Shown piece by piece: positions 18,449-40,789 of a DNA stretch of 64,000 nucleotides; the stretch's first letter is position 1, and every line of letters starts with the position of its first letter. Below the pieces are notes generated by a model that saw nothing but the letters and a program-made list of their open reading frames with translations, was not told where the DNA came from and ran no database searches. The position numbers and the translations under genes are program-made. The DNA is from Ceratodon purpureus (taxonomy: Eukaryota; Streptophyta; Bryopsida; Pseudoditrichales; Ditrichaceae), in contig CM026431.1 in assembly GCA_014871385.1 (NCBI GenBank), positions 7,685,778 to 7,749,777 of the forward strand, in the 5' to 3' direction.

Positions 18449-18474
18449 TCTCCAGCAGAGCCCAGAGCCTTGAC

Positions 18475-18489
18475 CACGACGCTCTGACC
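18475..18489. repeat. LINE target-site duplication, 5' side
   Basis: Second copy of CACGACGCTCTGACC, matching 10550-10564. Confidence 0.92.
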
Positions 18490-18922
18490 AGCTGAGCTAA
18501 GAAGGCCTATTACCGTGCCCACGGTCATAGGAAGACCGTGGATCCCATCGATGACAGACGTGATTGGATGATATCGGATCCTCCGGAAAGAATATGATGG
18601 ATCATCATCCGTCCACATCTGCGTGGAAAATGTTCACGGTCATGGGACCAGCCTCCACATCTGCGTGTACTAGCTAGTGACCACTCAGCAGTTGCTACTC
18701 TCACTCTGATCAACAAGTGCACCATCTTGAGTTGCACACTACCAGAGTACCAATTTTGTGGTTTATTATGTGATCATGGTTGATCAACATCGACCTATAT
18801 GGGCAAACTCCGATACAATGGTTTTTAGATGTGTTACAACTCAAGCATATCTAGATGGGTAAATTGTACGTAGAGATATCCTCTTTCGCTGCATCTTGAA
18901 GCGGAAGCGGAAGTTTGGGGTG

Positions 18923-18932
18923 GGAAGTGGAG
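18923..18932. repeat. Target-site duplication of giant element, left
   Basis: GGAAGTGGAG, repeated at 40026-40035. In uninterrupted units it occurs once, followed by TTACTCC. Confidence 0.88.
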
Positions 18933-19005
18933 GGGAAATGCTATTCTGCGAGCGATGAGCGGTGAGCGGTGAGCGGTGAGCGGTAACTTTGTGGAAATTT
19001 TGATG
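18933..19005 (+). repeat. Left terminal inverted repeat of giant element
   Basis: 73 bp, matching the complement of 39954-40025 with scattered mismatches. The best blocks are GCTAT, TGCGAGCG, GCGGTGAGCG, AGCGGTAACTTTG and GAAATTTTGATG. Four near-perfect GAGCGGT heptamers lie inside. Confidence 0.85.
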
Positions 19006-20360
19006 TTTTTGGTGAAGTTTCTCACTCTATAACTGCAGCATGTTGGTTTTTTTTTTATTTTTATTTTCAAAAAGTATGACCTTAAAAACACCTATCACCG
19101 TGCGTGCCTATTCCCGTGCATGCATGGATACGGATTTAGGTAATGAAGACTATTAGATCATTTAGGAATCTTTTATGAATATAGTCTTGTCCTTTACTTA
19201 GTATCTAAGTCTATTATCAATATAAAGTAAGACTAATATGAATATAAAGTTTAGCCAAGTAAGAGAAATAAAGGAACAACTTGGTGATCAGTATTAGACT
19301 ATTTGGAATTTTTTCCATTAATAGATTGTATTTTAATTTAGCCGCTGAGTCTATTATTATTATAAGGTCTAGGCAGAGAGCGAGATAAAAAGACTGCTCA
19401 GCAACTGCAGATTTTTCATTTATCAGATTTTTCTTTTATCCGATTTGAGTTTGTTTATGTCAGTTTGGGAATGGCTCCAGCGATTATCCTTTGCGAGGTA
19501 CGACGTCCATTGCTTTCTCTCGAGAAGTATAACTCACCGAAGGCACTGCCCAAGTGACAGAATTATAATGTTGGTGGTTTGGTTATATCGAGGTAATTTT
19601 TGATCAGGCCAATGATTATGGGATAATTTGGTTTGATAATGTATTGCGGTCTCGAGGTAATGTCTGATTAGGCCAGCGTGTTAATAATGTATTGCGGTCT
19701 CGAACTGCTGTGATCTCGAGAGTCCTTATGTGCTAACTTCGTGAACCGAAAATTAGTGTGATTGCATTAATTAGTGTGACTGCATGGATTATAAATAAGA
19801 AAAAATTACTGTAAGGGCATTAATTAGTGTGACTGCATGGGTTACAAATAAAAATAATTACTGTGATTGCGAATGAGATTACTTGATGTCAGGACTGCAT
19901 GGATATAATTAAGCAACTTCATCTTAAATCTACCCTGAAAAGAACAAACTTAAATTATAGAGCAGACCTGTGAGAATGGAGATTTTCTGATTCGAACGTA
20001 GGAGATGGCTTAGTGGGTTTCCTCTCCCAACAAAAAAAAAAAAAAAAAAAGAAGGTCGTAGACCATTTAATATAAAAAAGAAAGGGAATTAAAATAAAAA
20101 TTAAATAAACATGAAGAGAAAGGCAATTTAAGAAAGAAATGGAATAAGTTTTATAACATTTACGAAAAAGGAGAAAAAGAACTAAAGAAAAGAATAAGCA
20201 TGAAAAAAAGAAAAGAGAAGCATAGAGTAAAATTCCGGAGGAGAGTTGTATAAGTTCTATAGAGGGAGGGAGGCCTGGATTTTGGGCTGTAATGAGGACT
20301 TTAACAATGCAATTCAAGAGTGGTCCGGGCCGAGCAGAGTCCTGTGGGTGGCCACTGGAA
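19006..20360. other. AT-rich left interior of giant element, no gene seen
   Basis: No convincing coding frame. It holds short runs of T and A, two copies of GTATTGCGGTCTCGA (about 19640-19700), repeats of TTAGTGTGACTGCATGG (about 19760-19850) and a 20-base A run near 20032. One CCGAGCA copy of the dispersed motif lies near 20333. Confidence 0.6.
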
Positions 20361-21629
20361 GGTGCCAGTGGAAGGGATAAATGGAAAAAAGGAAAAGGAT
20401 ACGGGAAAAAGGAAAAAGAATGAAAACGAGGATGGGAGTGAGGATGAACTTGGGAGTGGAAGGGATAAATGGGAACATAAGATGGAATGAATAAAAGAAA
20501 AAAAAAAAAAAAAAAAAAAAAGGAAACCAATGGAGGTGTTAATATAGAAGAAAGGTGCCAGTGGAAGGGATAAATGGAAAAAAGGAAAACGATACGGGAA
20601 AAAGGAAAAAGAATGAAAACGAGGATGGGAGTGAGGATGAACTTGGGAGTGGAAGGGATAAATGGGAACATAAGATGGAATGAATAAAAGAAAAAAAAAA
20701 AAAAAAAAAGGAAACCAATGGAGGTGTTAATATAGAAGAAAGGTGCCAGTGGAAGGGATAAAAGGAAAAAAGGAAAAGGATACGGGAAAAAGGAAAAAGA
20801 ATGAAAACGAGGATGGGAGTGAGGATGAACTTGGGAGTGGAAGGGATAAATGGGAACATAAGATGGAATGAATAAAAGAAAAAAAAAAAAAAAAAAAAAA
20901 AAGGAAACCAATGGAGGTGTTAATATAGAAGAAAGGTGCCAGTGGAAGGGATAAAAGGAAAAAAGGAAAAGGATACGGGAAAAAGGAAAAAGAATGAAAA
21001 CGAGGATGGGAGTGAGGATGAACTTGGGAGTGGAAGGGATAAATGGGAACATAAGATGGAATGAATAAAAGAAAAAAAAAAAAAAAAAGGAAACCAATGG
21101 AGGTGTTAATATAGAAGAAAGGTGCCAGTGGAAGGGATAAAAGGAAAAAAGGAAAAGGATACGGGAAAAAGGAAAAAGAATGAAAACGAGGATGGGAGTG
21201 AGGATGAACTTGGGAGTGGAAGAGATAATTGGGAACATAAGATGGAATGAATAAAAAAAAAAGAAAAAAAAGAAAAGGAAACCAATGGAGGTGTTAATAT
21301 AGAAGAAAGGTGCCAGTGGAAGGGAGAAAAGGAAAAAAGGAAAAGGATACGGGAAAAAGGAAAAAGAATGAAAACGAGGATGGGAGTGAGGATGAACTTG
21401 GGAGTGGAAGGGATAAATGGGAACATAAGATGGAATGAATAAAAGAAAAAGAAAAAAAAAAAAAAGGAAACCAATGGAGGTGTTAATATAGAAGAAAGGT
21501 GCCAGTGGAAGGGATAAATGGAAAAAAGGAAAAGGATACGGGAAAAAGGAAAAAGAATGAAAACGAGGATGGGAGTGAGGATGAACTTGGGAGTGGAAGG
21601 GATAAATGGGAACATAAGATGGAATGAAT
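20361..21629. repeat. 188-bp minisatellite, seven copies
   Basis: Units start with GGTGCCAGTGG at about 20361, 20554, 20742, 20935, 21121, 21309 and 21498. Spacing varies from 186 to 193 bp, mainly through an internal A run of different length. The sequence is strongly purine-biased on the plus strand. Long minus-strand frames across it are by-products of the repeat. Confidence 0.92.
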
Positions 21630-22144
21630 TAGTAAAAAGAGAGCCCACTAATCTTGGTCATTAGTCCATCTACTTTTGGATCCTACTGTGCTCGGTCCTA
21701 CACAGTCCATTTCAGGACTTCAAAATTGCTTTGTTATGTAATTGTTCTAATGCATGCTATCATTCACTACGTAATGGTATAGGATATTTATGTCGTAATG
21801 CGTCAGACATTTATTAAGGGCTGAGCATACTCGGTGTTGAGTTCAATCAAGTAGAATGATTTACACACTAATTGCATCACTTACTCTTATTGGGTGAGAA
21901 ATAAGGTTTCGAACATAGAGCTCATTATCAGAACATTGACGAAGTTGGTTGACGAATGCTGAGAGGTGTATCACACTCTGAAGCGCATGACACGTTCAAA
22001 TTTGGACACTTTGAAGCTACTAAAATGAACATCAAAAATGGAAGGAGATGTTAATAAAGTAGAAAGGTACATAAAACTTCTCTATCTACTCGCTACTGCC
22101 TCTAACTCATATATCCAAAATATCCTCCAATAGACTCCTGTAAG
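21630..22144. other. Intergenic stretch between minisatellite and gene end
   Basis: No gene recognised. It contains TGTGCTCGGTCC near 21687 and a short duplicated phrase, ATATCCAAAATATCCTCCAA, at about 22110 and 22150, the second overlapping the end of the methyltransferase-like gene. Confidence 0.5.
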
Positions 22145-25100
22145 TCACATATCCAAAATATCCTCCAATGTACTCAAAGAGCGCACGATACAGCGCTCTT
22201 CTTCGCAGTCTTCTTCGTCTTCAGAAGATGATAAAGTGATAGTGGATGGCTCTTCTTCGTCTTCTGCCTCCTCTGACTCATCTGCTTCAATATCAACATA
22301 CTCCAATGATCTATTTGGTGCATTTTCAGATCTATAGTAACGATAAGAACCACGAGCCAGTTCGATAGCAGCATTGTTCGCATAAGATGGAAGATGCCAT
22401 GATGGTGGAGGGCTAGGGTAGAAATTAGCATCAGAAAAGAAAGGACGATGCACGGGATAGCCCATATTATCGCATCTGCAAATGTAAATGGCACATTGTT
22501 TATAAATCCACTCCACATTCAATGCGAGTACATAAAACGTAACTCTAGAGAAAAAGTATCTAAACTCACTTCAGGAATCGAGATCTCTTAAGGATCTTAG
22601 CAACTGGAACTTCACCCTCAGGATCATCAACGTTGACATGCTCAGTAGAGCTGGATTGAGGAATTGTGGAAGTCCGAATTAACGGCTGCAACAAAGCCTT
22701 GAAAATGTCTGCATCAGCCTCCAAGGCCACGATGTGGCGGTCAACGTTGCGGCAAGCGTGGATTGACGGACCTGAAGTACAATCCACTTCATTTTATTAG
22801 CAGTACTCAAAAACATTAAAGAATAGACAAGTTCTGAGGCAGAAGGTAAAACATAAATTTTAGAGAAACCAAGAAATATACCAGTTGCTGCTGTACAGTC
22901 AAACACAACGTTCCCAGGATCGGAGCATGCTTCAATCAACATTTCCATCAGAACCACGGATTTCTCCCGGGGGCCTCTCCATGGCTTCGGACCATTGCAC
23001 ATCTGGTTCTCTGGCAGAACTATATTCTGTAAGCAATCGTCACGACCCACGTCTACACCGTGACGGCTCAGCAGCTTAGGAACAGGGCGGAAAGCAAACT
23101 TTGAAGCAGGAGGTCCGGTCTTCACCAGCAGTGTAATCCCAAACCGAAGCGTCTACAATCCAAGAAAGCCAGCAAGGAAGTTAGCAGACATGACTACTCC
23201 ACGACTCGAGGTTCCAATTCGCAGGCCATGCCAAGTCGCTGCAGATGCCATGCATGGGCCATAACCTCAAGGAAAAATGCAATAATAAATTCAAAGTCCA
23301 TAGGAAGCCTAGGCCGTGGGCACGCCACACATGCAAATTCTGAGTGCCAGGCCATACGTACACTTCCTGTGTGGCCAGAAGGGGATTGGGAATACAGAAC
23401 TCAAGTACTGGTAACAGTAGCGAAATCATCAAATTCGAGGTAAGTTAAGACTTAATTTTCAATGGATAGCATACAGTCACAAAGGCGAGACGTGACAATC
23501 AGTCCATGGTCCAGATGATACATGAAGAAAATGAACTGATTATAAATTGCATTTGAAAATTTGAAACTTACAGTAAGTGAAGGATCGAAGGGTGATGCCA
23601 GGTGAAGTCGATTCATTGCCCACCATTCCTTGCGAACTCTGAAATTGAATGCATCGCAGTAACCTAAGATATTTGATTTTGTTGCTGCATGATACGGATG
23701 AAACAAAATCATGGCTCCGTGATCATGCAGGTGGTTCTCGGCAAAGTCGAAAGTGTTCTGCCAGAAATCACTAGAGTCTTCATTCCAAGCAGGGATGGAT
23801 GTAGGTGGGTCTGAAACGCCGGGGACAGGAAGGCCCTCAGGTACATCTGCAATAATAAGGTCGACGAAGTGATGCTTCACCTGTTTCCCACTCATGAAGA
23901 GGCTTCTCCCATCGGTGACCTGTACAGGTATTTAATTTCAAGGAAAGTCAGTGGTATGGTAAAAAGACAAAACTACGAGCATGATTCTAAATAAATCGAG
24001 TCGCAAATACCCGCATCACTTCAAAAGGCCAACTCAGATTGCCTGCGGTGTCATTGCTCTACACTCTGCTCGGGCCAGACCACCAGGTTACAGGGACAAA
24101 ATAAAGAACGAAAACTAGGAGAGAAAGCACAAAACCTGACAAACAAATATCATCTGAACAGGCTCGTCAAGAGGAAGCTGGCGAGTAATTAATTAGCAAG
24201 CTGGTGCAGAGGCCCTTACCCGCCACGACCATGGCATCATGGCACATCATGGGATGCCCATGGCATCATGGCATGAGCAAATTCCTCCAAAAATTATTAC
24301 AAGTTCAAAATGCATGTGATCTGGATTACCTTAAGCAGGGTACGCTTGACCTCCAGGTACATGGGAGTGAATTCATTGCCACTGCCTGCGAGGACATCTA
24401 TGAGGGATGAGTTCAAGATTAACTCGGAATTTTGGCCACACTCCCCAGCATCGTTGAATTCCAGGAGTTGATTGAGCTGATCATAGGAGGACCCTCTTTT
24501 TGTACCCCTGGAGATGTTTTTCTCTTTCAGGCCAGAATTGCCAGAAGGACTATTCTTATCATCCTCACCAGGGGTGTTAATTTTCTTCTTGCCCTTTCTG
24601 CTCGATTTTTCCTTTGCTTTCAGCTCCTTCTCCAGCTCCTTCTGCTCCGCCCTCTCCTCGGCTTCTCTTACTTTCTGGGCCTTCTTCCGGTCCTCCTCGA
24701 TCCTTCTCTTGAGAGCCTTGGCCCGCTCAGTTTCATCCTCTATCCCTTGAAGATCCACCATTTCAATACCGGACTCACCGATGGCATCCCTCGACTTCCG
24801 TAGCTCGATTTCGAAGGATGGAGTAAAACTTGGCACACAATCCAAGTACCATGCTCCAGCAGTAAGATGAGAAGTTGTCCATGTCCGCTGCTGCGAAGCT
24901 GAGAACATGCATGCATCACTTGATCTGTCGACCCATGCGTTAAGAAAAATAGGGAGATTCTCTTTTTTGATTGCCTGCTTGGCCAAGAGCTCGTACTTGA
25001 AATATCTGCATGAATTTCATCATCAGTTTCATGAGGACCCTGAACCAGTCCCTTTATAGCATGTCATGCGTAGCATGGTAAACATGATGAGCATAGAAGG

Positions 25101-28100
25101 GTCATCGACAGCATTGTAAGCAGAGGCATCGCGGGCATGGCAGGTGATTAGTCTCCTAGCACGGTCAGAATGTGCAAGGCAAATAGAGCCTTTCTGGTCA
25201 CCATGTATAATAACAACTATGATAAGTGCACTCGAAACCATTTCACTGCCACAAATGACTACCACAGCTGCCGGGAAATTCTAGAGAGTTCCAAACACGA
25301 ACCACTAACCAATGGAATTTAATCACCCAAGGACTGTGCAAACCAATGGAACTTAAGAATAAACCTGAATAGAAGTCGCCTGACTACGAGATCTGTTCCC
25401 TTGAACTCCCGAAATTCGTGTTGTTTCTGGAATCCTTCTGTTCCTCGGAAGTAAGAATTAAAAACGTGGTCCCAGAGCTTCATTCGGCAGTCTTCCACGT
25501 AAGCAACCAGGGTCATCGGCTCGGAGGAGACGGTCATGTCAATACTGACTTGGTCCTGTCGCACAATTTCATCGAAACTTGCAGACGCCTGCTCTGATAG
25601 CTGATATGTGCAATATCAAACACCAGTAGTTAGCTAAATTCTAATTCGTATGCATTCAAGTCATCACATTTGAAATGCTAAATACATAGCAATATACCTC
25701 TGCCCAGAAAGTTGCCCTGGCGAGCCATGATGTTAGCCTGTCTTCGTTAACGGGCTTCGGTGGGATCTTTCGGGCCTCTCGGGTGGCTGCTGAGGAGTTG
25801 AAGAATTGAAGCCATCTAATTTTTGCCGTGGAGGAAGCCTTCGCCGTGACTATGAGTTGCAGCTTCTCCATGGATAGCTCTGTGTTGGTGGTGTTACTTG
25901 AATAATGCCGCTCCACCTGCATATCAACACGAAAATACGACTGTTAGAATCCAAGTGGGAGTCTGCTTTGTGCCGAACAGACTCCAATGTGGTCCAATAA
26001 TTAAGGTCAAACCTACTCCAGCACTCTTTAATTCGACTTTGCATAGCACCGAATAAATGAAGAGTTCAAGATTACAGCAATGTCTACAGTGTAACATTAG
26101 TCGTCTCAAGGTCAAGCTCACAATTAGAAAACTTAAACATCTCCAATAATAAGCCAAGCATAGCCACGTACATGACGAATAGCAACTTCACAGAGATTAA
26201 TGAGTTCTAGTTCTCCTAGTATTAAGCACTCCAGTCAGTACACGAAGGTAAACGAGCTGTGTATTACCTATCACTTACATAGTGTCCTCTAAAATGAGCA
26301 AAGAATGCATCAAATTAAAGCAATTCTTATCAACTGAAAAACTAAAATGGAAACAGCAATTCAAATTCACCTTTGAACCAAGATAGCCACCAGAGATGTG
26401 AACATTATTTAACAACAAGCGATAAATTCGACAGACACTCCAATGCCATCAACAGACATCTCACCGCACTCCCCCCAATCTCCCAAACCGCCCTCAAACA
26501 AACACAGACCAAACTTCACAACAGCAATTGCAATGATGACATCTGATATGGCTATGATGAGATTTCGAAGGGCTATGATTACTTTGAATATGCTGTAATT
26601 TCAAACAAACCAAGGAAGTTGACAAGCCCGGGTACGCATCGAAGGTTGACCCAAGAAAAGGATATTCAAATGCCTCAGCCTTATGAGCAACTTACTTAGA
26701 CGAGGCTGCTGAAACAAACTACATATGGACCGTGACAGAAACAAATAACATGGTCAATTTGAAACCCGACAACAAGAAAAGTAATAGACCGGGACTTTCA
26801 TCTGAGAGAATGCAAGGACGAAGAGTATGTTTCCAAAAGAAATGAAAAGTCCAGCCACCGTTGACCTCAGAGTTCAGACTGCTCGGAGCCTAGCACAGTT
26901 GGACACAGCAGCAGAATCACCGCGCGCAAAGCCTAGGCAGTGCCAGAGCAAGTGTGCTCGGAGCCGAGCACAGTTGGAATGGGAGTCCGACGGACAGAAG
27001 TTTTCAGTCTTTTCATTCGTCACTTCGAGATGAAAAACCACGATGGGATGGGAGTGCCCAACTCTGCTCGGCTCCGAGCACACTTGCTCTGGCACTGCCT
27101 GGGCAGCTTCGACCTACGTGGGATTAGCTTGCACTGCGTTTAGACTATTCAGTCCTTCTTTACTACATATCATTCAAGAATTAATCACAGGTGACCACAA
27201 TTCTATACTCCTACTCCACATCTTCGTGAAAGCCGATTCTTATTGCCTCCATGTAGAAAAGATTATGAGACCGCATAGTCAAAGTTGGGCCTAAGGAGTA
27301 ACGTTATAAGGCTTGACACATATTCTACGGTGACTTGCAAAAACAGCACTGGCCTGTGCCACAGAAAAACTAGAAGTAATGATCTGGATTCTCTCAATCA
27401 ACTGTTAGGGATTATGTGAATTATTAAACTATCAAGGATGATGCGAGCTTCTGGCACATGAAGAGAAATCGAGAATTCATTAAATAAATCAATCATATCG
27501 ACTCTGAGGTAATCCTTAGAAGAAAGTAGTTAAAAAAAAAACACAGACAAATACTGATACAACAATCACCTGCTACTTCTTACCACAGTCAGATCAAAGT
27601 TTCTGATTATGCCACCAACGCACAATTCTTTCAATGAATTGATCCCTTAAATACAGTCTTAAGAATTGCCATGATAAGAGCTACCCTAAACCGAGAAGGC
27701 CAAGCATAGCAGAGAGTTGTCATCTACTGGTTTTCTGATTAAGCCGTGAAGCTAAAACGAAAGTTAACAAATTGGATACCAGTTTTGGTTAGGGATAAGC
27801 ACGAAATACTTACCTCTCGGAGCCACGCTGGTGTGAGTTCAGGATTCGCCACGGCAATAAACTTACTCATCTTTGAGCGTAGTTTTCGTGTTTCAATCTT
27901 CACAGCGGCCTTCATGGCCCTGATCTTATCAGCTTCTGTGACCTCGCCATCGTTGTTCTCCAGGAATCCTCGAAGACCTTCATCAGCAGCACGACTTATC
28001 TCATGCTGCAGTTCCCATCCGATCCCCACAGTGTCAAATACCCATGTCAAATATAACTCAGTAAAGCCAATCTAGGTAAGATCCGACGATGCTGCGATAT

Positions 28101-31100
28101 GGCGTTTACCATAGACTACGAGGTATTATGATGGATCAAGGTGACTAACGCTGCATACACAGTGGGGGACCATGATCACGATCCGCTGATGATGCCAGGG
28201 CATTCGGCATAGACCTGCTTAAGATCTTCGTTATTACTGAAATCATTACCCAGTCAACCATGCAAACTAATCAAGTAACAATGAGATAAGGTTATTCAAA
28301 TATACCTGGAAGATGAAACTCGTAAAGACATTAACAGGCAAGGTTTGCCAAGTACTGTGCTTTGTTTTCTTGCACCTCTTCAAATCAGTACTTGACAAAA
28401 TATCAGTGAATTGCTCCAGTGGCATAAGGCCGTATTTCTGCACCCTGAAGAGGGTGTGAACTGGATTTGTCTTAACATGCGCATCCTCCGTGTTCCTGCA
28501 ACACAATACTTTAGCACAAGAATAACATTAAAGAATATTGTCCCAAGCAGCTCAGAATACTGGTACGGTTTAGAGGTAGTACTCACTTGTTGATGTTATG
28601 CATCACCTGCATTACAAGGCCAATTCTACCCTTAGTGTCCAGGAGTATAGAATCAACCGAGTAGTGCCATGACTCATCCGTCTTGTGCAGGCGCTCAATG
28701 TGATTCCACCAGGCCTGGTACCGATGGTTACCGTCGCAAATGAAGAACATCATATTAGTAAGGGGAGCCAACTCGGGAACGGAGAGGAGGAAGTCGTTGA
28801 ATTCATCGTTCTTCTGGTTCCATATAGGTCCCCACTTGGCCTTGTCAGTTTCAGATATCTCTCTGGTTTTCCCCTCCTCGTCCGTGGTTGACAAGTAGAA
28901 TACTGAGGCACCCTCGCGATAGCCATGCACAAATTCCTGCTCAAGCTTTGACAGGTCACTGTGTAACGTGGGCCGCACCATCGGCATTGCAAGCATACGG
29001 CAGAGAGGAACCTCAAATCTCGAGGCATAATGAGGCTGCATTCGGAGCTCTGCAATCGTTGAAACAGAGTTTATCTTCTGACGGTTCCGAATTTCGTCTT
29101 CATTTCCCACAAAGGTATCACCAGTTGAGTCCCCTTCCCCATCCGAATCTCCCTCCTGGCCGTCTGATTTTTGGGTGAGGGCAAGCGGTGACTCATTGAG
29201 GCTGCCTTCGACTTCTGGTTGCTGCTCCTACAATCACACGCATTACCACATTACCACATTATGAAAGGGGTATACAAATATATTTTTTAAGACAATGCAG
29301 CCTAGAAAGTACCAGGTAATGCATGATCAAGGTCATGTGATAGATTGTTCAGGACCTTGCACAATATGTGCAACACGCAGAAAGAGTAATCACCGGTAGT
29401 AATCAGTCTAACGTGCCTAATTTTCGAGTGGGCATACGGCGAGAACCAATAAAAAATGCACCTCATTCCGAACACAACTTCGTAGCCATGAGGTTTGGAA
29501 CTCCAGGTCACACCCGACTATCCTCTGTGATCTGATAAATTCAATATGTTAAAATAAGAAATTAAGTCTGCTCGGGCCGAACCAATCCTTCCACACCACC
29601 TGGTAGAGAAATGATACAGTCAAAAGAACGATGCTGCAAGTGTGCTCGGAGACCACCATACCAACACCACATCTTCCTAACCTGTAAGCCTAGTCCTGCT
29701 GCGACTCAGCTCGGGGCCTTGCAGCTTGTTTGACTACCTCTTTCTAATTTAAAAAAAACCCCCTGCTGCGAGACTCCTCGGACCTTTTGACATCATTACA
29801 GTACCTAATTCCATTAACCAGAAGTGCCTGCAACAAGTCTGCTCGGACCCCGTCAAATGGTTACACTACCTCAGTCGGATTTTTTAATGGCCTGGTGCAA
29901 GTGTGCTCGGGCCCTTTCACCAGGTTACAGTACCTAATTCCATTAACCTGAAATGCCTGCAACAAGTCTGCTCGGACCTTTTAACCTCATTACACTACCT
30001 AATTTTATTAACCTGAAGTGCCTGCAACAAGTCTGCTCGGACCCCGTTAACTGGTTACACTACCTCAAGAGGAACATTTTAAATGCCTGCTCTAAGTCTG
30101 CTGAGGACGTTGCACCCGGTTACACTACCTCAGTCCGAATTCGTTTCTGGGAAATACAAGGAAATAAGCTCCTAGATGTGGTTATCCAGCCCGAGCAGAC
30201 TTGTGAACCAACAAATGAGCTGTGGATCTACGTAATCTTGATAGTTAGAAGAACAAAAATGACTATGCTCCTCCTTGATGTCTACTCTCGCTATTATTTA
30301 CACTTAATTCGTCAAAGACTTAGTCAGTAGTGAACGTTCTAGCACTCTCATCGGCCACGTGGAATCTTATGAATGGAGGTCATGATATGGAATCGTACCG
30401 CAAACTACTTCACAAAGGAAGGCTGTATTAGAGAGGTCAGCCCCGAGCACACCTACGAGGAAGGCCTGCTGAGACTACTCCGACTTTCACGGTGTCAAGA
30501 TAGAGGGCCAGAATACCTTGGTCAACCCCGAGCACACTTCGTACAGGTGGACAGGTGAATGAATATGGCCCATCAAAATGATAAAAGAGAAGACCCTATG
30601 ACAAGGGTCAGCCCCGAGCAATGTACTGGACTACTTAATTCGGATGCTATGTCTGACTAATCGGCCCGGAACGGTGCTCAAGACTTTGCTAGATGTAACC
30701 CAGGATCAATTCACGGACTTGCTTCTCGAAGTGTGCTCGGAGCATACCATTGCCTTCAGGTTCATTTGACTTGTCGCCCAGTTCAATATACCTGGTTACT
30801 TTCATTAAAATTCGCATTCTAATTTGTGTCCAAAGAAAGAAAGACATGCAATGTGATGCAATATTCCAACAAGTTGACTTAAATAGGCCACGTGGAATCT
30901 AAGAATGCAGGTGACGAAGAAGAGGACTACCACAAACTACTTCATCTTAGAGGGCTGTTTCATTAAGCCTAACCCCCCTCATTCATTTGAATAAATCCTA
31001 GTGAGGGAACTTGAGTATGGACGGTTATAAAATAAGAGGGCAGGAGACCCTGGTGACCCCCGAGCACACTACGTACTGGTGGACAGCTGAATCAACATGG

Positions 31101-32602
31101 CCAACGAAGAGGACAAAAGAGAACACCATGAACAAAGGGTCAGCCCCAAGCAATGTACTGGAGAACTCAATTGAGGCCAGCTGCTGGCAGGACAGGATGC
31201 GAGGTTTCTCTAATCGGCTTGAAGCAGTGCTAAAAACTTAGGTAGACGTCACCCAAAATCAGTTCATGACCTAGCTTCTTGAAGTGTGCTCGGAGCATAC
31301 CATAGTTTTGAGGTCCATTTAGTTTGTCTACCATTCATTTCTACCTAATTATCATCATTAAATTCTGCACCCAGATTCGAATCAGAGCAGAGGATGGGAG
31401 AATGTTCGGAAGTTAGCCTGGAATTGGACTAAGGAACAAAGACATATAATGCCGAACAAGAACCCTACAAATGGTACAGCTGTCGACATCAATGGACCGG
31501 ATCACGTAATGAGTACCAGTATGTTCCTCTCCGAGCACACCTAATCTCTGTCTCATTTTCGAGGTCAGCGCTTGAAAAAAGTACCCACTGGACCAACTAT
31601 CACGAACGCATTCTGGGTTCTACTTATGCATGATCAAGAGCTAAGTGAAGGGAAAGCAGGAAACAAATCCTTGCTGGTCAAAATACCTGGGGTACATCGA
31701 GTGGAATCTCTTCACGTCCTTCGCTGGAGGGGCCTGCGTCCACCATCATTTGAGACTGCCTAGGGCAGGAGGAATGCGAATCCGACTTCTGAATCTGGGG
31801 TTCACGCAGCCCCTGTCGATATTGCAGAGCTCCTTCTTGCCGAGCCCCTTCCTGCGAATCCCCTTCCTGCGAAGCCTCTTCCTGCGAATTCCCTTCCTGC
31901 AAAAGAATTCCACTTTATTAGAACATATTCAGTGATTGCGATATTAGAAGCTGGCAATTTCCAGATCTTGCAGGGAAGTGGAAGCCTCGCGGCCGAGCAT
32001 TACCTAGTGAACCAGGGTTTCGGAATGCAGCCTCGATGGGCTCATGTGCCTTCTATACCGACTGCTTAAGGTCCCTTTACCCTAGATCAAGTTCTCTAAA
32101 TACTAGGTACTCGATTAGTACTCGTGAGTCTACTCGGAATAAAATGCAAGAAATGACTGGAATATTGACAGCGGTAAACATTAAAGTTGGAACAAGTCTC
32201 TTTCTAACGTGAACTACTAATCAGTAAATAATGTATGAAACCAATTACGTGACTTGAATGTGAGTTACAAATCAACGTAACATACCTTCCCAGTCTCCAT
32301 TACTTGAATGTGAGTTACAAATCAACGTAACATACCTTCCCAGTCTCCATTAAAGGTGAACAAGCGCCGTCGGCAAGAAACTGAAGTTTCTTTGGCTGGA
32401 CCTCGGCTTCATCAAACGCATCGCCGTGAACCCCTTGTTCTTGAGCAACAACCTTACTAGAGTTTCCACCCTTCCTCCCCATGGTTGAACGCAAATTGTA
32501 CGGGGTAGCAATGCCTTCTGTAAGCGCTAACTTCTGTAACCTCTGTATACGTCGCTCTCTTCTAGATTCTAGCTTAGCTTTTGCACCCGATCTGGTTATC
32601 AT
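22145..32602 (-). CDS. ParB-like / DNA amino-methyltransferase-like fusion, 12 exons
   Basis: Exons run from high to low: 32336-32602, 31687-31896, 28587-29227, 28306-28495, 27814-28071, 25698-25916, 25365-25600, 24330-25005, 23572-23919, 22882-23152, 22570-22771, 22145-22475. All junctions are GT-AG and in phase, giving 1,282 residues with no stop. Residues 1-160 are basic, then SQEG repeats. Residues about 200-375 are ParB/sulfiredoxin-like, with DGNHRYQAWW at 324-333. Residues 763-815 are a charged K/E-rich helix. Residues 900-1170 resemble a beta-class N6-adenine/N4-cytosine methyltransferase: motif IV position DLIIADVPEG (919-928) comes first, then the SAM-site position VFDCTAATG (1098-1106). 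The tail is acidic. Usual DPPY and FxGxG signatures are altered, so activity is uncertain; it may only bind DNA. Nuclear location is inferred. Confidence 0.85.
26931..27107. repeat. Inverted repeat in intron 5 of the ParB-methyltransferase-like gene
   Basis: Arms 26931-26977 and 27058-27107 are complementary over about 47 bp with two mismatches, around an 80-bp loop. Each arm contains a TGCTCGG..CCGAGCA palindrome. A partial third copy lies at about 26875-26902. Confidence 0.85.
29696..30150. repeat. 65-bp tandem repeats in intron 2
   Basis: About seven diverged units with starts near 29696, 29762, 29827, 29891, 29956, 30021 and 30086. The conserved core is CCTGCAACAAGTCTGCTCGG, then GGTTACACTACCT. 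Most units hold one copy of the element-wide TGCTCGG motif. Confidence 0.85.
30151..31686. other. Remainder of intron 2, motif-rich
   Basis: Non-coding between exons 2 and 3. The complement CCGAGCA recurs (30193, 30441, 30526, 30613, 31058, 31533) with TGCTCGG at 30735 and 31287. Two segments are diverged duplicates: about 30340-30790 resembles 30880-31330 (shared CACGTGGAATCT, GAAGTGTGCTCGGAGCATACC). Confidence 0.6.
32251..32352. repeat. 51-bp tandem duplication across a splice donor
   Basis: Two copies, 32251-32301 and 32302-32352, nearly identical. Each contains the CAGTCTCCATT exon end and the CATACCTTCC donor region of exon 1 (minus strand). The exon-proximal donor (32335/32336) keeps the frame. 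Use of the distal copy would add 51 nt with an in-frame TAA. Confidence 0.9.
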
Positions 32603-33004
32603 CTCTGCTTGTATGCTAAAATAAGACTTGCTCTTTTATCCATGACATTGCTCTGCTTGAACAATCTATGAACGGACCAAATGTTCATATGTACTCGAGT
32701 GCTTCATAACATTATAGCGCATGTCATGGTTAATATCTTGTAACTAAGACTTAATCACAGTTGTACAAACAAAGTTAGTTCAACTTTCATACTGTCAGCT
32801 GTTTACTGCATGTTAAGAAGAATATCTTCAAAGCCGCCGTCTTTGATATGCCGCTTGCTTTTACTAATAACCCTTTATTTAAACCCGCTGAAATTCAGAA
32901 CAAAATGCCTTCATCCAATGACAAGTTCTGTCAATCTCTATATAAGATATGCGAACGCCACATTCAGTATCGGACTTCTCACATGATTTTTTTCTCCTGA
33001 CGTG
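32603..33004. promoter_or_regulatory. Shared divergent promoter region
   Basis: The 402 bp between two head-to-head start codons. A plus-strand TATATAAG lies at 32939-32946, 59 bp before the ATG of the 149-residue gene, and CCAAT occurs near 32914. I saw no clear TATA box towards the minus-strand gene. Shared regulation is inferred from the arrangement. Confidence 0.5.
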
Positions 33005-33454
33005 ATGGACCCGCATCAGTCCCCTCCTCATTCAGTTCCAGTTACGCAGCAGGAGAGAGAGGAGAGCATGTCCTTAGGTAATTTTGACGGGCCTTTTGAA
33101 CCAATTGAGGAGTCCAAGTTGCCTGATTGCTGCCAGTGCAAGGCCCCGATCATACAGTCGGATGTGATGACCTTAGATGCAAAGGAGTGTGACCGGTTGT
33201 TGCCAGCACCCACTGTTGAAGTTCAGGAGTCCATGGGCAATTCTAGTAATGCTTCCCATGCGTACGCAAATGTAGGGGTCATCAAGCCTGGAACATATTC
33301 CAGACTTCTTTTAAGAAGTACCCCGCGGCCCAGAGGACGTAAGCTAAAGAGTAGAGGATGCCGAGCAGTTCATAGCACAGAAGGAGGAGAAGAAGATAGT
33401 AATAATGATTCGGCTGCCGCTCAGGGATCTATGAAACGCAGACGTCAAATGTGA
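33005..33454 (+). CDS. Unknown 149-residue protein
   Basis: A single-exon frame with a TATA box at a reasonable distance, divergent from the ParB-methyltransferase-like gene. The N-terminus is polar. CCQCKAPI at about residues 38-45 gives one CxxC pair but no second pair. The C-terminal third is basic, with STPRPRGRKLKSRG and a final KRRRQ that could act as a nuclear signal, separated by an acidic EGGEEDSNND stretch. I recognise no family. It could be a small DNA- or chromatin-binding accessory protein of the element, or the first exon of something longer; the ATG-to-stop frame with a good TATA favours a gene of its own. Confidence 0.5.
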   Translation: MDPHQSPPHSVPVTQQEREESMSLGNFDGPFEPIEESKLPDCCQCKAPIIQSDVMTLDAKECDRLLPAPTVEVQESMGNSSNASHAYANVGVIKPGTYSRLLLRSTPRPRGRKLKSRGCRAVHSTEGGEEDSNNDSAAAQGSMKRRRQM

Positions 33455-33882
33455 TTTAGGTCCCATGAAGGGTAGCTTTTATTAGTTACTTCTAGGCCAT
33501 TATGAATTGAGTGGTTCCAATGTAACACTGAACTATTTCATCCAATTTTTGAGAATAATATTTTAGGAAGTTGCTGTCATAATCAGTCACGACTGTCGTA
33601 TCTTACCCTCTGAATTAATTCTGCTGATTAGGGCGGGTACGAGTACTAATCCCTATGTAATAAATTACAGTTGCCAAACTAAGTACGTACAAAGCGTCTC
33701 ATTAACATTACAGAGCTATAGAAGGCAAATTTGGTTTCCTTCGTATTCCACCACTCGTAGATAACCACTTGATGATTGAATTGCCGTCATACTTAAGCAC
33801 TGGAGAATTCTTATGCGTCCCTCTTTGTTTTTATTCCTCTTTCCAGATCTAATTGTTGCTGGTGCCCCTTAATCTGAACACG
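33455..33882. other. Intergenic, no feature seen
   Basis: AT-rich, presumably the 3' UTR of the 149-residue gene and the upstream region of the transposase. No TATA box in a convincing place. Confidence 0.4.
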
Positions 33883-36800
33883 ATGGCCTATCTTTGTGCG
33901 GATTCGCATTCCGTTCCGATTACCTTTCCTCTAGGGGTAGATGGCCGCGCTATGATCAGTTCCACCACTCTGAGTCTTCGATTTCGTTTTCGTGAGGACT
34001 CACTGCATGTAGAAGAGGAGTTCTTTGACGACATCACTGGTGCTCTCTCGCATGCCGTAGGTCAGCTGTCAACTCAGAATGAGATCGGAATGTTCTGGAT
34101 GCTCAAACCTGGAAAGTATAAAGTTTACGGAGTTACCGAGTCTGTACTAGCTGCCTCTACTGAATTGCTCACTCCCCGATCGTCAACAACTGTGTGCCTT
34201 GAGTCTGAACCGTTGTTGAGGAAGGTCAAGACCGAGCCAGGTCTTCAGACCATCTATGAGCTGAGTGATGACTCCGATAGTGAAAACGCAGAAGAAATTC
34301 CTGTGACCCATGAGAGCAAGGAGAAGACTCTGCCAGTTGCAGATGATAATCGTGAGGAGGTGGTTGTCCCTGTGGAGTCCTCGGTTCCTTCTAGTGTTGC
34401 AGTTGATAATTGTGAGGAGGTGGTTGTCCCTGTGAAGTCCTCGGTTCCATGCAGTGTTGCAGTCCCCCCTTCAGAAAGTGTCGTTCAGTGCCTCATGAAG
34501 CTTAGCGCTCGTAAGAGGTCAAAGAGTGTTCTCTCGCGCATCAATTTTAATGCAATTAGAATGCAGGAAGTTCAGTACCTTCCACCTCAGTACAACGGCG
34601 ATGTCATTTTCGAGTTCCCACCCCTAGGTGCTCACGGCCATCACTCTGCTGCAAAGCAGTTACGGGGAATGGATAGGAAATACGATGGACACCCTTGGAC
34701 TCGCACAGTTACTTCGAATATTCAAAACGACCTGAAGTTGGTCTTTCGTTCTTCGTCGTGCCTTGGCCATCTCCGTTGTGACAATGTCAAATGTGAGTAT
34801 CTGACACGTGGAAACAGGACTTCGGTAGTGAACGAGACTGATGGGATGGGATATCTGAGAGACTGTTTGAAGTTGGGTGTAACCCGCCGCAGAGTTCCAC
34901 TGTAGTTTGTAAGTCTTGCAATACACCACCGACCTGCGTTGCGCTTTGCCCTGCAAGGATATATTACGTCACTGCGGGACCTCACATGACGAGAGCATGC
35001 GTTCATCTGGGAACTCACGACCATCCAGTGAAGTCAGGCGAGAAACCGGGACTTCGTCGAACATACGGAGAACTTGATCAAGGAGCAGGTGGAGCGTACT
35101 CCGTCCGCCACCAATTCGGCCATCATCCTCGAAACTGCGAAGGAGCTGCTTGGGCCATTACTTCTGGCCAAGGAAGGTGAAGCGCAGAAGATTCTGGAAT
35201 TGGAGGAGCTCGAACCAATCTTCGACCGCTGTAAGCACCTTTCTTCCCCAAACATCAGAAATTGCATTACCTCGTTCAAGGCTGTTAGGCGCTTTGGGAC
35301 CATGGACAGCATCAGAATGCTGCGAGGCTTCAGCAACTGGAAGTTTATCCAAAACAACTTGTTTCCGGGGCAAGGCGATGATGCTGCGAAGGTGTATGTC
35401 TTCAAGATGTCTGAGGTAGGGCCGGGTAGTGGAGTCGATTTAGTTCGGCGTATGCAGACCGGCGGTGACTTGGAAAATGCGTGGATCATGTTTGACCACG
35501 TGAGGCGAGTCAGGGACTGGGTGACGATGGCCTGCCACGTCTATGACCCCACCTACTGTCGGATAATGACAATCGCAGCGTGCGACATGCAGTCGGAGGA
35601 CACAGCGGCCCAGTCCGTCCTCTGGAAGAATCTGAATGCTATCATGGGGACTCACGGGGTCGAGAGAGTTAACTTTAAGGGCTTTATGGCGGATGGTGCC
35701 CAAGCGAACTTCAATGCAGTTCGCATTATCTATGGAAGCGGTAACGCCTCCGAGATGATGATTGATAGGGAGAGGACATGCCTATTCCATTGGAGGCAGT
35801 CTCTGGAGCAACATACAAAGGCTCACATTCGACCGGACCTACGAGCGCAGCACATCAAACTCTGCCAGCAGTACAAGAACGCCACGACTATGGCGGAAGC
35901 TGAAACAAAGTTTTTGGCAATCCGAGCATGGTGGATGTCATCCGGCGCTGCAACAGAGAAAGGGCTATCAGATCTGGAAACGTGGCTTTCGTTCTGGCAG
36001 TACCGGTATCGCCAATGGGGAGGTTTCATGGAATTGGTAAGTAAACCCTATCCTTTTAATCTCAGTCGCATCTAAAGATTGGTGCCTTACAGTCAGTTAT
36101 TGGACCTTCAGCTATCTGACCTAACCTCCAATGTTTGCAGAATCACAGTGAAGAGGAGCTCGCAGAGATGCCATCCTGCAACCTTGCTGAATCAATCCAC
36201 AACCGGTGGAAGCAGCAGTCCGGAGATCGTGGCAGTGACTTGTATGTCGCAGCTGTGGACGACTTTGTAAGGGCCTTCATGCAATGCGTTGCCTACTTCC
36301 AGTTTCTGAAGGGGGAGCGTCCTGGGAAAGGTCCGTCAAAAGAGGAGCTCAAGCTCCGACGTGCACAGAGATCTGCAGCAAGGACAGGAAATCCGAAAGT
36401 CCTTCACGAAGCGATTATGAACATGCCGGGAGCAAACGAATGGTGCACCCGGGACCCGCATCTTGAAGGGGAGGAGGTCTGTGTCTCTTCTGAAACGCAA
36501 ACCGGATGTTGCCTTCGGAGATGAACGAGAGTCTCATAGGCCAGACAAGATCAGCATGTCCAGACCTCGTGTCCAGACTAGAGCTGCACGCCGGTGAGAG
36601 CGACTATGCTCCGACGGTGGTAATAGCAGACTCTCCTACAAGCAGCGAAGAGGACCAAGACGACCTTCAAACCTGACTCTTCCCCACCTCCAGTCGGCTA
36701 CCATCACGTCACTTCAGTTGAAGAAACCGCCTGCAACCCCTTCCGAGTGGCACATTGCACGACTTCCTAAGACATCCGCCAAGGCCTGCTTCGCCCAACA

Positions 36801-37246
36801 TGCCGTGACAATGAAGAAATGCGTGGCACGGATCGTGCAGCACGGGAAGAGCACTCCGGCGCCGACATACACTGGCCCCATGAAGAACTACAAGAAAGAC
36901 AGAATAGAGACTCATCAGTTCTTTTTCTGCAATGACGACATTGACAGGTGCGTCAAGGGTAGCAGCAAACGGAAGTGGGGTCCTATCGGTGCCAAAGGTA
37001 CCTGAGGTGTGGCCTGTGAAGCTTGGGACAAAGTTGACGAAGAAAGAGATCCTCTCTCTAGAGAATGCTGGCTTTAGACTCCCGCAGCAGAAGGAGATGT
37101 CACCAAGAAGACTCTTTCAAGACCAGGCAGCGGCAGTAGTAGACTTCTCGGCCTACCCTACGCCGGCATACCCGGACGAGTTCCCTACCCGGCGATCAGG
37201 AAAAGCTCATCCGACGGAACAAGAAGGCCCCGTCGACCAAGCATAA
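33883..37246 (+). pseudogene. Decayed Mutator-like (MULE) transposase
   Basis: Pieces in order on one strand resemble a long MULE-type transposase. 33883-34905 gives an acidic N-terminal region, then GMDRKYDGHPWTRT and SSCLGHLRCDNVKCEYL, a GCM/WRKY-like zinc region that continues in another frame (VCKSCNTPPTCVALC to about 35040). 35050-36036 holds the DDE-type core: ACDMQSED, FMADGAQANFNAV and CLFHW (C-x2-H). A clean phase-0 intron, 36037-36140, leads to NLAESIHNRWK. Later pieces (36718-37246) include CFAQHAVTMKKC and EVWPVKLGTKL. At least four frame changes or stops interrupt it (near 34850, 35040, 36480, 36985), so this copy cannot make a full transposase. The family binds terminal inverted repeats and cuts and pastes with 9-11 bp duplications, as seen here. 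Confidence 0.72.
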
Positions 37247-38336
37247 GCAATAATTGTGCCTCTGCCTTATCGTTGCCACGCGAAGGTTAGCAAGTTGTGC
37301 ATGCTGCCTGCCCCAGCCCTGGGATGCATCGTCACATTGGACTCTGGGAAGCTCCAAAGGTACAGCAATATTACTTGACCATATCGCAGTACCCTGCGTG
37401 CACTTGGCCCGAATTTCAAGGAGATGGCAATTACGGCACTTGGGAAGCGAGGTCAATGGGCTAATTGTAAGCATCTGTATTACCTGGTCACTGTAGTTTG
37501 CGGTCTTGAATCAGAGTCGGATACATTCATCCATGCAGCTAGTTTTAGCTTCAACGAAGTGAAGCGAGCCCTACAGAGCGGCCTTCTGAAATACTTGGAG
37601 AACTAGTGTTTATGTGAGTTGGTGTTTGCACATGTGTAGCCTGTATTTATTTTAATTGTGAAGTAGTGAGACTAAAGAGGGCCACTACCAAAAATTTGCA
37701 GTAGCACTGGATGTCATTTTGTCAAATTCGTGTAAGTCTCGCTCTGAATATACACAACTCTGTAAAGAACTATTTACCACTAAGCAATGTAAGGAATTAT
37801 GTAATTCCCAATGAGGCTATGATTAGAACGTTTAGAATGGAGTCACATAAGTGTGCTCAGACCCAAACCAACATTTTTCAGGATTTAGGGAGGGGCCACA
37901 TAAGTGTGTTCGGGACCGAGCAAACGTTTCCAGGGTTAGGAGGGAGTCACGAAAGTGTGCTCGGGACCGAACAAACCTTTTGCAGTGTTTATGAGAGAGT
38001 CACGTAAGCGTTTGGGCATTCCCAATCCTTTTCAGACTCCTAGAACGCAGAGGACTCTGTTCCAAAGGGTGGTATACCAGTGGCCCAGCTTTGTCAGAAT
38101 TTAATGAATAAGGTTGAAAGCTTCAGACCCGTATAACCCCACCACTACATTTATGCATGACCATTGAGACTGTACACCGTTTTGAATTCAAGGTCCTGTA
38201 CAAGTAATTTTTATCTTCCTCAGAACTGCCTCTTTCTGTCCTTGATTGTTGTACGTGCGTATGTGTGTATGTTATGTTCCATATCTATGTTCCAGTCACT
38301 TCTCAGATGCACACTGTAGTCATAATTCGTTGTGTT
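37247..38336. other. Intergenic with TGCTCGG-type repeats
   Basis: No gene seen. Three tandem-like phrases, CACATAAGTGTGCTCAGACC, CACATAAGTGTGTTCGGGACC-like and CACGAAAGTGTGCTCGGGACC-like, occur about 53 bp apart near 37845, 37897 and 37950. Confidence 0.6.
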
Positions 38337-39383
38337 CTAGTTTTTGTCGCTTGTTGGATTTTCATCGTCCACATCGGCTGTTGAGTGACGGTCCTCGACA
38401 TCCACTACTGCCTGACGACGTCGAATCCAATCAAATTGTTTTACCCACTTAGGGCTGTTCTGCTGACAGGTTCTGGTATCCAGGAAAATACCACTGTCAT
38501 TTGCTTTCCAAGCGCAATCAATACACAACATGGGCTGCTCGAGGTCATCAGGTGGTATCCATAGAAACACGTCATTGCGGGATTGCCTTGTTGCTATTAG
38601 AATGAAGTTGCATATCCATTTTGTAATAAAATGTGGATGTGTAGCTCGTCTTAAGATAACTCCTGTGGTACGTTCATTCTCAGATTCTCTCTGGAGACGG
38701 GATGGCAGTGTTCTAACTGTCGTAGCACCATTTACTGGCCCGTAAACCAGCATCAATTCGTGGTCGAGGTCATTAAGTATTGAAACAAAGTAGTCGCCAA
38801 GTCTATCAATCAATTCCCAAGTGTATGGATTTCCCTCAAACTGGCCCTTCTTCACAAAGTGCTTACAACCTCGAGGAGGACTGAACTGAGAGACGTATAC
38901 TCCGTCGGCCTGAATTCTCCAACGACATTGAGGTTCCTCAGAATGCGGCCATTCATCACAGATTGGACAATCATCGTCCGAGTATCCTGCCAACTTGTTC
39001 CGCTTGCTCAGCACTTTTGGATTTTCATAAACGCAGACAGGCTCAAGAATAAAGGATTCCACGCAATTCCAACTCCTGGTTTCGTACGTAAATCTGCAGA
39101 ACAGATTGTTTCTAAACATTTCCAAATTCATACGTTGTTGAAGCGGAGAACCAAGAAGAGTTACCGAATTCGGACTAAGATTTTTAGAGAAACTGTATGT
39201 CATTCTCACTAGTCCATTGGCGGCTTTCTTTTCGGCACAATTCACTATAACTGGATGAGGAGATGCGTTTTGAATCTGAAGGGGACTATGTGTATCTGGT
39301 CGCCAAGCATGTAGGCAATGAAAATCTAAGAACAGTAAAAAAAGCAGAGAACGAAGTTGATTCTTAGAGACCTGGTTTTGCAT
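38337..39383 (-). CDS. Secreted protein with two S1/SPH-like domains
   Basis: A single-exon gene of 348 residues. Residues 1-27 look like a signal peptide (LRSLLFLLFLDFHCLHAW). Residues about 40-170 resemble the plant self-incompatibility S1 (SPH) fold: VIVNCAEK, then NLFCRFTY with a following WNC, then the hallmark CRWRIQADGVYV at 153-164. Residues about 198-302 look like a second, more diverged copy: VSILNDLDHELMLVYG, CNFILIA and CAWKANDSGIFL (290-301). A charged tail follows. Extra cysteines (CPICDEWPHSEEPQC) lie in a loop of the first domain. SPH proteins are small secreted proteins; one poppy member is a pollen-rejection ligand, and most have no known role. Single-domain members are about 110-150 residues, so a tandem form is unusual. 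It is the last gene before the right end of the giant element. Confidence 0.65.
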   Translation of the reverse strand: MQNQVSKNQLRSLLFLLFLDFHCLHAWRPDTHSPLQIQNASPHPVIVNCAEKKAANGLVRMTYSFSKNLSPNSVTLLGSPLQQRMNLEMFRNNLFCRFTYETRSWNCVESFILEPVCVYENPKVLSKRNKLAGYSDDDCPICDEWPHSEEPQCRWRIQADGVYVSQFSPPRGCKHFVKKGQFEGNPYTWELIDRLGDYFVSILNDLDHELMLVYGPVNGATTVRTLPSRLQRESENERTTGVILRRATHPHFITKWICNFILIATRQSRNDVFLWIPPDDLEQPMLCIDCAWKANDSGIFLDTRTCQQNSPKWVKQFDWIRRRQAVVDVEDRHSTADVDDENPTSDKN

Positions 39384-39953
39384 ATTTACGAATGGCCGAG
39401 AACTATCACCATGTGCAAGAATGTTATTTTTTGTTTCTGCCTGGAATTTGTAATTGAGGAATTACTGCAAGACAAATTTTGTGTTCAAAAAGGATCACGA
39501 TGTATTCAAGTGAAATTGAAGCAGTCATTCACACGGTTGAGTCTAAGCAAGAACTGATCAATAAATGAAGTTCGATGTTTTGAATCGTCAAAGGCATTTG
39601 AGGAGGTGACCGGTTCAAAGGTTCTTGACATACGAAAGGTCACTTTAGCATGTTTAGAAAGACACAAATTCCCAACTGTCATAAAAGAGTGATAGATTTT
39701 GTACTTCGGACCACTGTTTGCAAAATAGCACCGACCGAACTGTTCTTATGACAGCATTCCACGGATGTTGGCCCGTACTGTCCACTGATCCTAACACCAA
39801 GATTTCCACGGTCATAGATCTACGTCCTTCAGTCATTTCACTGAAATTGTCCACGGCCATAGGTCACATTCCGAACTATATTTAGAATTTTCAAAAAGCA
39901 AAACAATGTTACTCCATAAAATACCGTAATGTTACCGCTCTAATTCACATTTT
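39384..39953. other. Right interior of giant element, no gene seen
   Basis: AT-rich. It includes upstream sequence of the SPH-like gene and, near 39930-39945, an outlying TTACCGCTCT copy of the terminal-repeat core. Confidence 0.5.
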
Positions 39954-40025
39954 CATCAAAATTTCTGCAAAGTTACCGCTCTCCGCTCTCGCTCACCGCT
40001 CACCGCTCGCACTATAGCGTCGTCC
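39954..40025 (-). repeat. Right terminal inverted repeat of giant element
   Basis: 72 bp, complementary to 18933-19005. The heptamer repeat is partly degenerate here (GAGCGGT, GAGCGAGA, GCGGAGA). Confidence 0.85.
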
Positions 40026-40035
40026 GGAAGTGGAG
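40026..40035. repeat. Target-site duplication of giant element, right
   Basis: GGAAGTGGAG, followed by TTACTCC as in uninterrupted array units. Confidence 0.88.
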
Positions 40036-40162: not shown

Positions 40163-40236
40163 TGCCCTCTACAGGGATCGAACCTGTGACCTTCGCGTTA
40201 TTAGCACGACGCTCTGACCAGCTGAGCTAAGAAGGC
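40163..40236 (-). tRNA. tRNA-Ile(AAU), array copy 16
   Basis: Same sequence as copy 1; first gene right of the giant element. Confidence 0.95.
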
Positions 40237-40789
40237 CTATTACCGTGCCCACGGTCATAGGAAGACCGTGGATCCCATCGATGACAGACGTGATTGGATG
40301 ATATCGGATCCTCCGGAAAGAATATGATGGATCATCATCCGTCCACATCTGCGTGGAAAATGTTCACGGTCATGGGACCAGCCTCCACATCTGCGTGTAC
40401 TAGCTAGTGACCACTCAGCAGTTGCTACTCTCACTCTGATCAACAAGTGCACCATCTTGAGTTGCACACTACCAGAGTACCAATTTTGTGGTTTATTATG
40501 TGATCATGGTTGATCAACATCGACCTATATGGGCAAACTCCGATACAATGGTTTTTAGATGTGTTACAACTCAAGCATATCTAGATGGGTAAATTGTACG
40601 TAGAGATATCCTCTTTCGCTGCATCTTGAAGCGGAAGCGGAAGTTTGGGGTGGGAAGTGGAGTTACTCCATTTTGTAGGTCAGAAGCGGTTTGATTGGCA
40701 TGTAACATGGTAAAGGAGAGGAGAGGGAGCACAAAGAGGTGGAGAGCATTCGCAGAAACTATTTCAAATGAGGGGAAGAAAAACAAAAA

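Follow-up and report, generated by a model that had tools for sequence, protein, structure and literature searches.

Why is a tandem array of tRNA genes in a moss interrupted by 21 kilobases (kb) of other DNA, and what is the role of the long, intron-bearing gene inside it? The array lies in a stretch of 64,000 nucleotides from Ceratodon purpureus (assembly GCA_014871385.1, contig CM026431.1, positions 7,685,778 to 7,749,777 of the forward strand), which was analysed as a whole, is called the window here, and supplies all coordinates below. The interrupting DNA is a giant Mutator-like DNA transposon inserted into a tandem array of tRNA-Ile genes. On the strand opposite to its transposase gene it carries a gene of 12 exons for a protein with a ParB-like motif and a methyltransferase-like domain. 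The whole explanation that we favour, at a probability of roughly 0.55, is that this is a giant Mutator-like transposon with a conserved accessory gene, the protein of which would bind sites iterated in the element's own sequence.

Ends and transposase of the element

How well are the limits of the element defined? It occupies 18933-40025, that is, 21,093 base pairs (bp) between two copies of GGAAGTGGAG. The features needed for this question are as follows.

18923-18932: left copy of the 10-bp target-site duplication GGAAGTGGAG, an exact match to the right copy
18933-19005, plus strand: left terminal inverted repeat, containing GAGCGGT heptamers
39954-40025, minus strand: right terminal inverted repeat
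40026-40035: right copy of the 10-bp target-site duplication GGAAGTGGAG, an exact match to the left copy
1103-9954 and 40163-46506: tRNA-Ile(AAT) tandem array of nearly identical 627-bp units, with 26 tRNA genes in the window
10565-18474, minus strand: long interspersed nuclear element (LINE), with RVT_1, zf-RVT and DUF4283 above the cut-off and an endonuclease just below it

The terminal inverted repeats are identical in 61 of 73 columns with one gap, and the local score of the pair is 48, while the maximum among 2,000 random interior pairs is 14. The 458 bp to the left of the element (18475-18932) are the matching part of an intact 627-bp unit, and to the right the sequence of the unit resumes exactly. 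The array thus fixes both junctions, and its units on either side of the element are the same or almost the same. The original prediction had placed the ends exactly to the base, and this is confirmed by the duplication outside, the inverted repeats inside and the 627-bp unit on both sides. Could the array and the 21-kb segment have been wrongly joined in assembly? Long near-identical arrays are in general hard to assemble, but wrongly joined pieces would not show inverted repeats with a 10-bp duplication immediately outside them, and we regard a misassembly as extremely improbable.

The array unit to the left of the element is itself split further left by the LINE. This LINE is flanked by a 15-bp duplication, CACGACGCTCTGACC, at 10550-10564 and 18475-18489, and sits within one of the tRNA-Ile genes of this array; about 440 bp separate it from the giant element. 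One tRNA-Ile copy, at 43925, scores lower, 55.6 bits against 65.7. A search of the literature found nothing on point for the tRNA-Ile array, and scans of viral contigs with queries derived from the element and with the LINE found no relative of either.

The transposase gene and its catalytic region lie as follows.

33883-37606, plus strand: Mutator-like transposase gene, in pieces, broken by at least four frame changes
35032-36036 plus 36141-36476, plus strand: D-D-C(2)H-E region, spanning a GT-AG intron

The spacing of its core is D(65)D(28)C(2)H(98)E, an order which we take to be that of Mutator-like transposases (DDE, with C(2)H between the second D and the E). The transposase of the window gave no significant match to the Pfam MULE/Mutator profiles. 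In a scan of prokaryotic genomes one relative of it was found, on a 4.1-kb contig (L009) in a bin of uncultured Synechococcales. The L009 transposase is 53% identical to that of the window and has 704 codons without a stop. It conserves the D, D, C and H of the core, as well as the E in the next exon within an NLAE stretch (NLAES/NLAET). Since its intron is at the same place as that of the window gene, L009 was judged to be eukaryotic. Its protein ends in a C-x-C...C-K-H pattern, presumably SWIM-finger-like, and against Pfam it gives a weak match to Transposase_mut (13.4 bits, expectation value (E) 0.036, cut-off 21).

Is the window copy still able to move by itself? Two frame changes fall between 34842 and 35032 and two more downstream, with further stops. 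They are not explained by introns, because the pieces overlap or abut and leave no room for one. With at least four frame changes and stops the transposase gene is not intact, and the copy is probably non-autonomous. That the 21 kb is one mobilised unit with Mutator-type ends is well supported, and this part of the claim of a giant cargo-bearing transposon stands on the 10-bp duplication, the inverted repeats and the D-D-C(2)H-E transposase.

The 12-exon gene and its relatives

The other part of that claim concerns the cargo. Is the 12-exon gene a passenger, or does it belong to the transposon?

22145-32602, minus strand: intact 12-exon gene for a ParB-like/methyltransferase-like protein of 1,282 amino acids
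32336-32602, 31687-31896, 28587-29227, 28306-28495, 27814-28071, 25698-25916, minus strand: exons 1-6
25365-25600, 24330-25005, 23572-23919, 22882-23152, 22570-22771, 22145-22475, minus strand: exons 7-12
28587-29227, minus strand: exon 3, with the ParB-like motif FICDGNHRYQAW, below the Pfam threshold
22570-23919, minus strand: exons 9-11, with a beta-class amino-methyltransferase-like domain (motif IV DVPE, motif X GPREKS, motif I DCTAATG)

The model was checked by hand. All its introns are GT-AG and no internal stop interrupts its 1,282 codons; with five introns recurring in a relative, the gene is intact as had been predicted. A possible further exon, a small one at 23331-23366, is not part of the model.

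The relatives come from the same cyanobacterial bin as L009 (AVDCRST_MAG81), where two contigs were found (search E 5e-44). The first, L020, has 4,691 bp and contains a whole gene of 7 exons, 1,136 amino acids as modelled. The second, L010, has 3,103 bp and contains a partial gene with introns, 90.6% alike to L020. By BLASTP the window protein is 28% identical to that of L020 over about 1,000 residues (E 2e-116). L020 has six introns; five coincide with introns of the window gene in both column and phase, and the sixth agrees in phase and lies 4 columns away, in the variable tail.

The pair L020 and L010 was also compared by a Nei-Gojobori script for nonsynonymous (dN) and synonymous (dS) substitutions. 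Over 876 codons dS is 0.31 and dN is 0.033, giving a dN/dS of 0.107; the ratio is 0.046 in the methyltransferase domain (249 codons) and 0.57 in the C-terminal tail. The low values for the gene and the domain indicate that the relative is maintained by selection. A search for the gene family in 386 genomes from the phylum of the bin, sampled from a larger group, gave matches in this bin alone, which speaks against a cyanobacterial gene. The bin, with its contigs L009, L010 and L020 bearing transposon genes with introns, evidently contains eukaryotic contamination. The tRNA array unit was not found in the bin, where an empty result carries no weight.

These data bear on a capture like that of Pack-MULEs, in which the element would have copied the 12-exon gene from its host as cargo. 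Plant Mutator-like elements take up gene fragments, according to the available part of PMC6431247, and the gene does have introns. However, two copies of a divergent relative occur in the very bin of the transposase relative, the gene is whole, and its relative is under selection. We therefore consider capture improbable. Pack-MULEs have no transposase of their own; a broken one is present here. An accessory gene of the transposon lineage fits better because of the relatives in the bin of the transposase relative, the common introns and the strong purifying selection, and for these reasons the word cargo is probably wrong for this gene.

What kind of protein is encoded? Its C-terminal part matches the structures 5hfj/5hek of PDB (E about 1e-6, residues 161-232 of the 237 given) and PHROG 67 (E 6e-7, residues 19-231 of the 274 given). 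The Pfam profile N6_N4_Mtase scores 22.1 bits on the window protein and 25.7 bits on L020, both just below the cut-off of 26.7. A profile made from the three family members aligns with CcrM (6pbd) at E 0.007 over positions 19-241 of 247. Judged by these alignments, the C-terminal domain is of the N6/N4 amino-methyltransferase type, and the DNA-methyltransferase-like gene that had been predicted in the element is upheld by the PDB and PHROG matches to beta-class enzymes. In the N-terminal part the DGNHR of the ParB-like motif is conserved between the window and L020 (L010 does not reach the region). The best weak matches of this part are DUF1015 for the window and DndB for L020. Because no profile match reaches its threshold, the domain is called ParB-like at the level of the motif only.

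Catalytic motif and iterated sequences

Does the protein methylate DNA? Active beta-class amino-methyltransferases have the motif IV consensus [DNS]PP[YFW]. In all three family members (window, L020 and L010) motif IV is DVPE, versus D[PL]P[YF] in all eight phage methyltransferases that were fetched, among 25 listed of 224 matching records. The HPTQKP stretch has become G[PA]REKS in the three members, and motif I reads D-x-TA-x-TG. As L020 and L010 are close copies, the three members count as two independent lineages. The DVPE is common to copies under selection, so it looks like a trait of this branch rather than the decay of one copy. Standard amino-methylation by the protein is doubtful, as far as its motifs tell. 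Alternatively, the protein could be an active enzyme of the N6-adenine or N4-cytosine type and methylate the element that encodes it. The same has been proposed for an Ectocarpus protein: in the available part of PMC12477816 it is suggested that proteins of this kind bind the transposon that carries them and modify it. Such an activity would agree with the retained beta-class order, the partial motif for binding S-adenosylmethionine (SAM) and the strong purifying selection on the domain in the relative (dN/dS 0.046). Against it stand the DVPE in place of D[PL]P[YF] and the G[PA]REKS at the HPTQKP stretch in every member, which make an active enzyme unlikely.

If the protein does not modify DNA in the standard way, what could it recognise? 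The heptamer TGCTCGG occurs 27 times in the element; the remaining 42.9 kb of the window contain 4 copies. First-order resampling gives an expectation of 1.5 (maximum 4 in 100 runs), and third-order resampling trained on the element itself gives 4.3 (maximum 10 in 200). After palindrome strands and local duplicates were merged by hand, about 18 independent occurrences remained, while automatic merging left 22. Almost all copies (25 of 27) lie outside coding sequence as modelled, and 21 of the 27 fall between the ends of the methyltransferase-like gene, chiefly in its introns 2 and 5. When up to one mismatch is allowed, the longer sequence AAGTSTGCTCGG is found 20 times, always in the element, versus 0.38 expected. 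A position-weight scan was built from the sites themselves and was not used as a test. The clusters are the following.

29564-31542: main cluster, with AAGTSTGCTCGG on both strands, within intron 2 of the methyltransferase-like gene
26880-27086: cluster in intron 5, with the two perfect TGCTCGGNNCCGAGCA palindromes at 26955 and 27065
37848-37970: cluster in the interval from the transposase gene to the last open frame

Besides the two perfect TGCTCGGNNCCGAGCA palindromes there are five more with one or two mismatches; outside the element none has two or fewer. On the reverse strand of L020, at 1-400 and upstream of the gene, four imperfect palindromes of about 60 bp each, as judged by eye, are spaced 106-109 bp apart. 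Each is centred on TGGGTCTCGGATCCGAGACCCA or a variant of it, and three of the four contain CTCGG-N2-CCGAG, which is also the core of the two perfect palindromes of the window. We infer that AAGTSTGCTCGG and TGCTCGGAGCCGAGCA are candidate binding sequences for the ParB-like/methyltransferase-like protein.

Two other explanations must be weighed here. One is that the iterated motif arose by local duplication of neutral intron sequence, or is the site of a host factor. Several of the copies do lie in local duplications, namely tandem repeats of 65 bp and 51 bp and a pair with a spacing of about 530-550 bp. Yet the independent occurrences are found on both strands and in separate noncoding intervals, and the related gene has palindromes with the same centre; we consider such an origin less likely than not. 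The other is a composite insert, in which the methyltransferase-like gene came with another element nested inside the Mutator-like one. According to the accessible text of PMC12477816, nested insertions are present in the majority of the giant transposon families of Ectocarpus. Here, however, the other widely spaced inverted repeats (25 of 27 pairs shown) have only 26-30 nucleotides and 70-85% complementarity, and the motif occurs on the far side of the transposase gene as well as within the methyltransferase-like gene, in its introns. A nested origin is thus very unlikely in our view.

The remaining features of the element, followed by those beyond the array, are listed here.

20359-21629: tandem array with a period of about 188 bp, 6.7 copies and 96% matches, between the left end and the methyltransferase-like gene
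33005-33451, plus strand: open reading frame of 149 codons, head to head with the methyltransferase-like gene
38337-39461, minus strand: open frame of 374 codons, with a weak Self-incomp_S1 match (18-18.7 bits, cut-off 24)
48791-51034: hAT-type transposase open reading frame beyond the array (Dimer_Tnp_hAT and zf-C17orf113; DUF4371 below the cut-off)
58650-59648, minus strand: protein-kinase-like open reading frame (Pkinase, E 3e-9)

The original prediction had counted three non-transposase genes in the element. One of them, the 12-exon gene, is solid; the frame at 33005-33451 may be the first exon of the transposase gene, and 38337-39461 is only an open frame. Pfam searches of 20 single open reading frames gave weak matches only.

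A proposed role and the known systems

A scenario can be put together as follows. A Mutator-like transposon inserted into the tRNA-Ile array. Its transposase copy is broken, and further movement would depend on enzyme supplied in trans by an intact copy. The 12-exon gene is best read as a conserved accessory gene of the transposon lineage and not captured cargo, as its relatives suggest. Its protein combines a ParB-like N-terminal part, recognised by motif, with a methyltransferase-like domain in which the catalytic aromatic residue is replaced in all three known members (DPPY to DVPE). Most likely it would serve to bind, through its ParB-like or middle part, the AAGTSTGCTCGG/TGCTCGG-N2-CCGAGCA sites in noncoding DNA, and the methyltransferase fold may serve as a module for binding DNA or SAM rather than as a standard enzyme. 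Such binding could mark or protect the element, or regulate the protein's own gene. A bolder proposal is a eukaryotic transposon with a parS-like system of its own, where the ParB-like protein would load on the iterated palindromes and mark, silence, protect or partition the element without standard DNA methylation, the methyltransferase fold, its canonical catalytic motif lost, being a reader or a SAM-gated switch. This is quite unlikely by our estimate.

Several points count against the explanation that we favour. Transposase and methyltransferase-like gene are linked in the window only; the relatives of the two genes come from different short contigs, and the origin of L009, L010 and L020 from one organism is an assumption. 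On L009 the unrelated profile Beta-lactamase2 scores 13.0 bits, nearly equal to the 13.4 bits of Transposase_mut. The ParB assignment stays below every profile threshold, and AlphaFold2 without an alignment gave a mean predicted local distance difference test (pLDDT) of 44 and 38 for two window exons, too poor for use. Five of the 11 window introns are without an L020 counterpart, two of them falling in an N-terminal part that L020 lacks. The DVPE is known from two independent lineages, L020 and L010 being 90.6% alike. As for the motif, its copies come partly from local duplication and sit in introns and between genes, away from the ends of the element, while L009 and L010 are without it (the sequence of L010 stops short of the gene's upstream region). 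The match of the palindrome centres was noticed post hoc, and its chance of about 1 in 1,000, for five bases anchored at the centre, comes from rough counting. Finally, the open frame at 38337-39461 has no relative in the cyanobacterial bin that holds the other relatives.

How does the element compare with known systems? In our search of the literature PMC12477816 was the sole paper on point for ParB-methyltransferase genes in transposons, and none was found for mosses or charophytes. The available part of that paper describes Sola1-1_Ec32 of Ectocarpus, of 21.5 kb, with a protein of 1,104 amino acids that combines ParB-like and N4/N6 methyltransferase parts and is encoded on the strand opposite to the transposase; it also states that the transposase gene in giant families is frequently predicted to be pseudogenised. 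A ParB and methyltransferase gene in a giant algal transposon is thus already in print, its function given there as not known. To judge from that part, the window element is like Sola1-1_Ec32 in its giant size and in the ParB-like/methyltransferase-like gene opposite the transposase. Unlike that member of the Sola-1 superfamily from a brown alga, it has a 10-bp duplication and a Mutator-like transposase. The new points here are the Mutator-like carrier, the altered active-site motif in two lineages, the candidate binding site (palindrome centre CTCGG-N2-CCGAG), and the selection on such a gene, shown in the relative by dN/dS and common introns. They turn an accessory protein of unknown function into a question of binding and activity for the bench.

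The 10-bp duplication, the terminal inverted repeats and the D-D-C(2)H-E order of the window, together with the C-terminal C-x-C...C-x-H of L009, are like those of Mutator-like elements. At 21 kb the element is unlike Pack-MULEs, none of which in Jiang 2004 is above 7 kb as far as the available part of PMC6431247 states. The protein resembles the phage and prophage fusions of ParB with N6_N4 methyltransferases that are described in the accessible portion of PMC12704722, since both domain types are in one protein tied to mobile DNA. It differs from those prokaryotic fusions, as presented there, in its introns, its long middle part and its altered motif IV. In comparison with the beta-class methyltransferases of CcrM and DpnA type (6pbd, 5hfj), the C-terminal motif region aligns with 5hfj and the family profile with CcrM, whereas DVPE takes the place of DPPY and G[PA]REKS that of HPTQKP in the window family.

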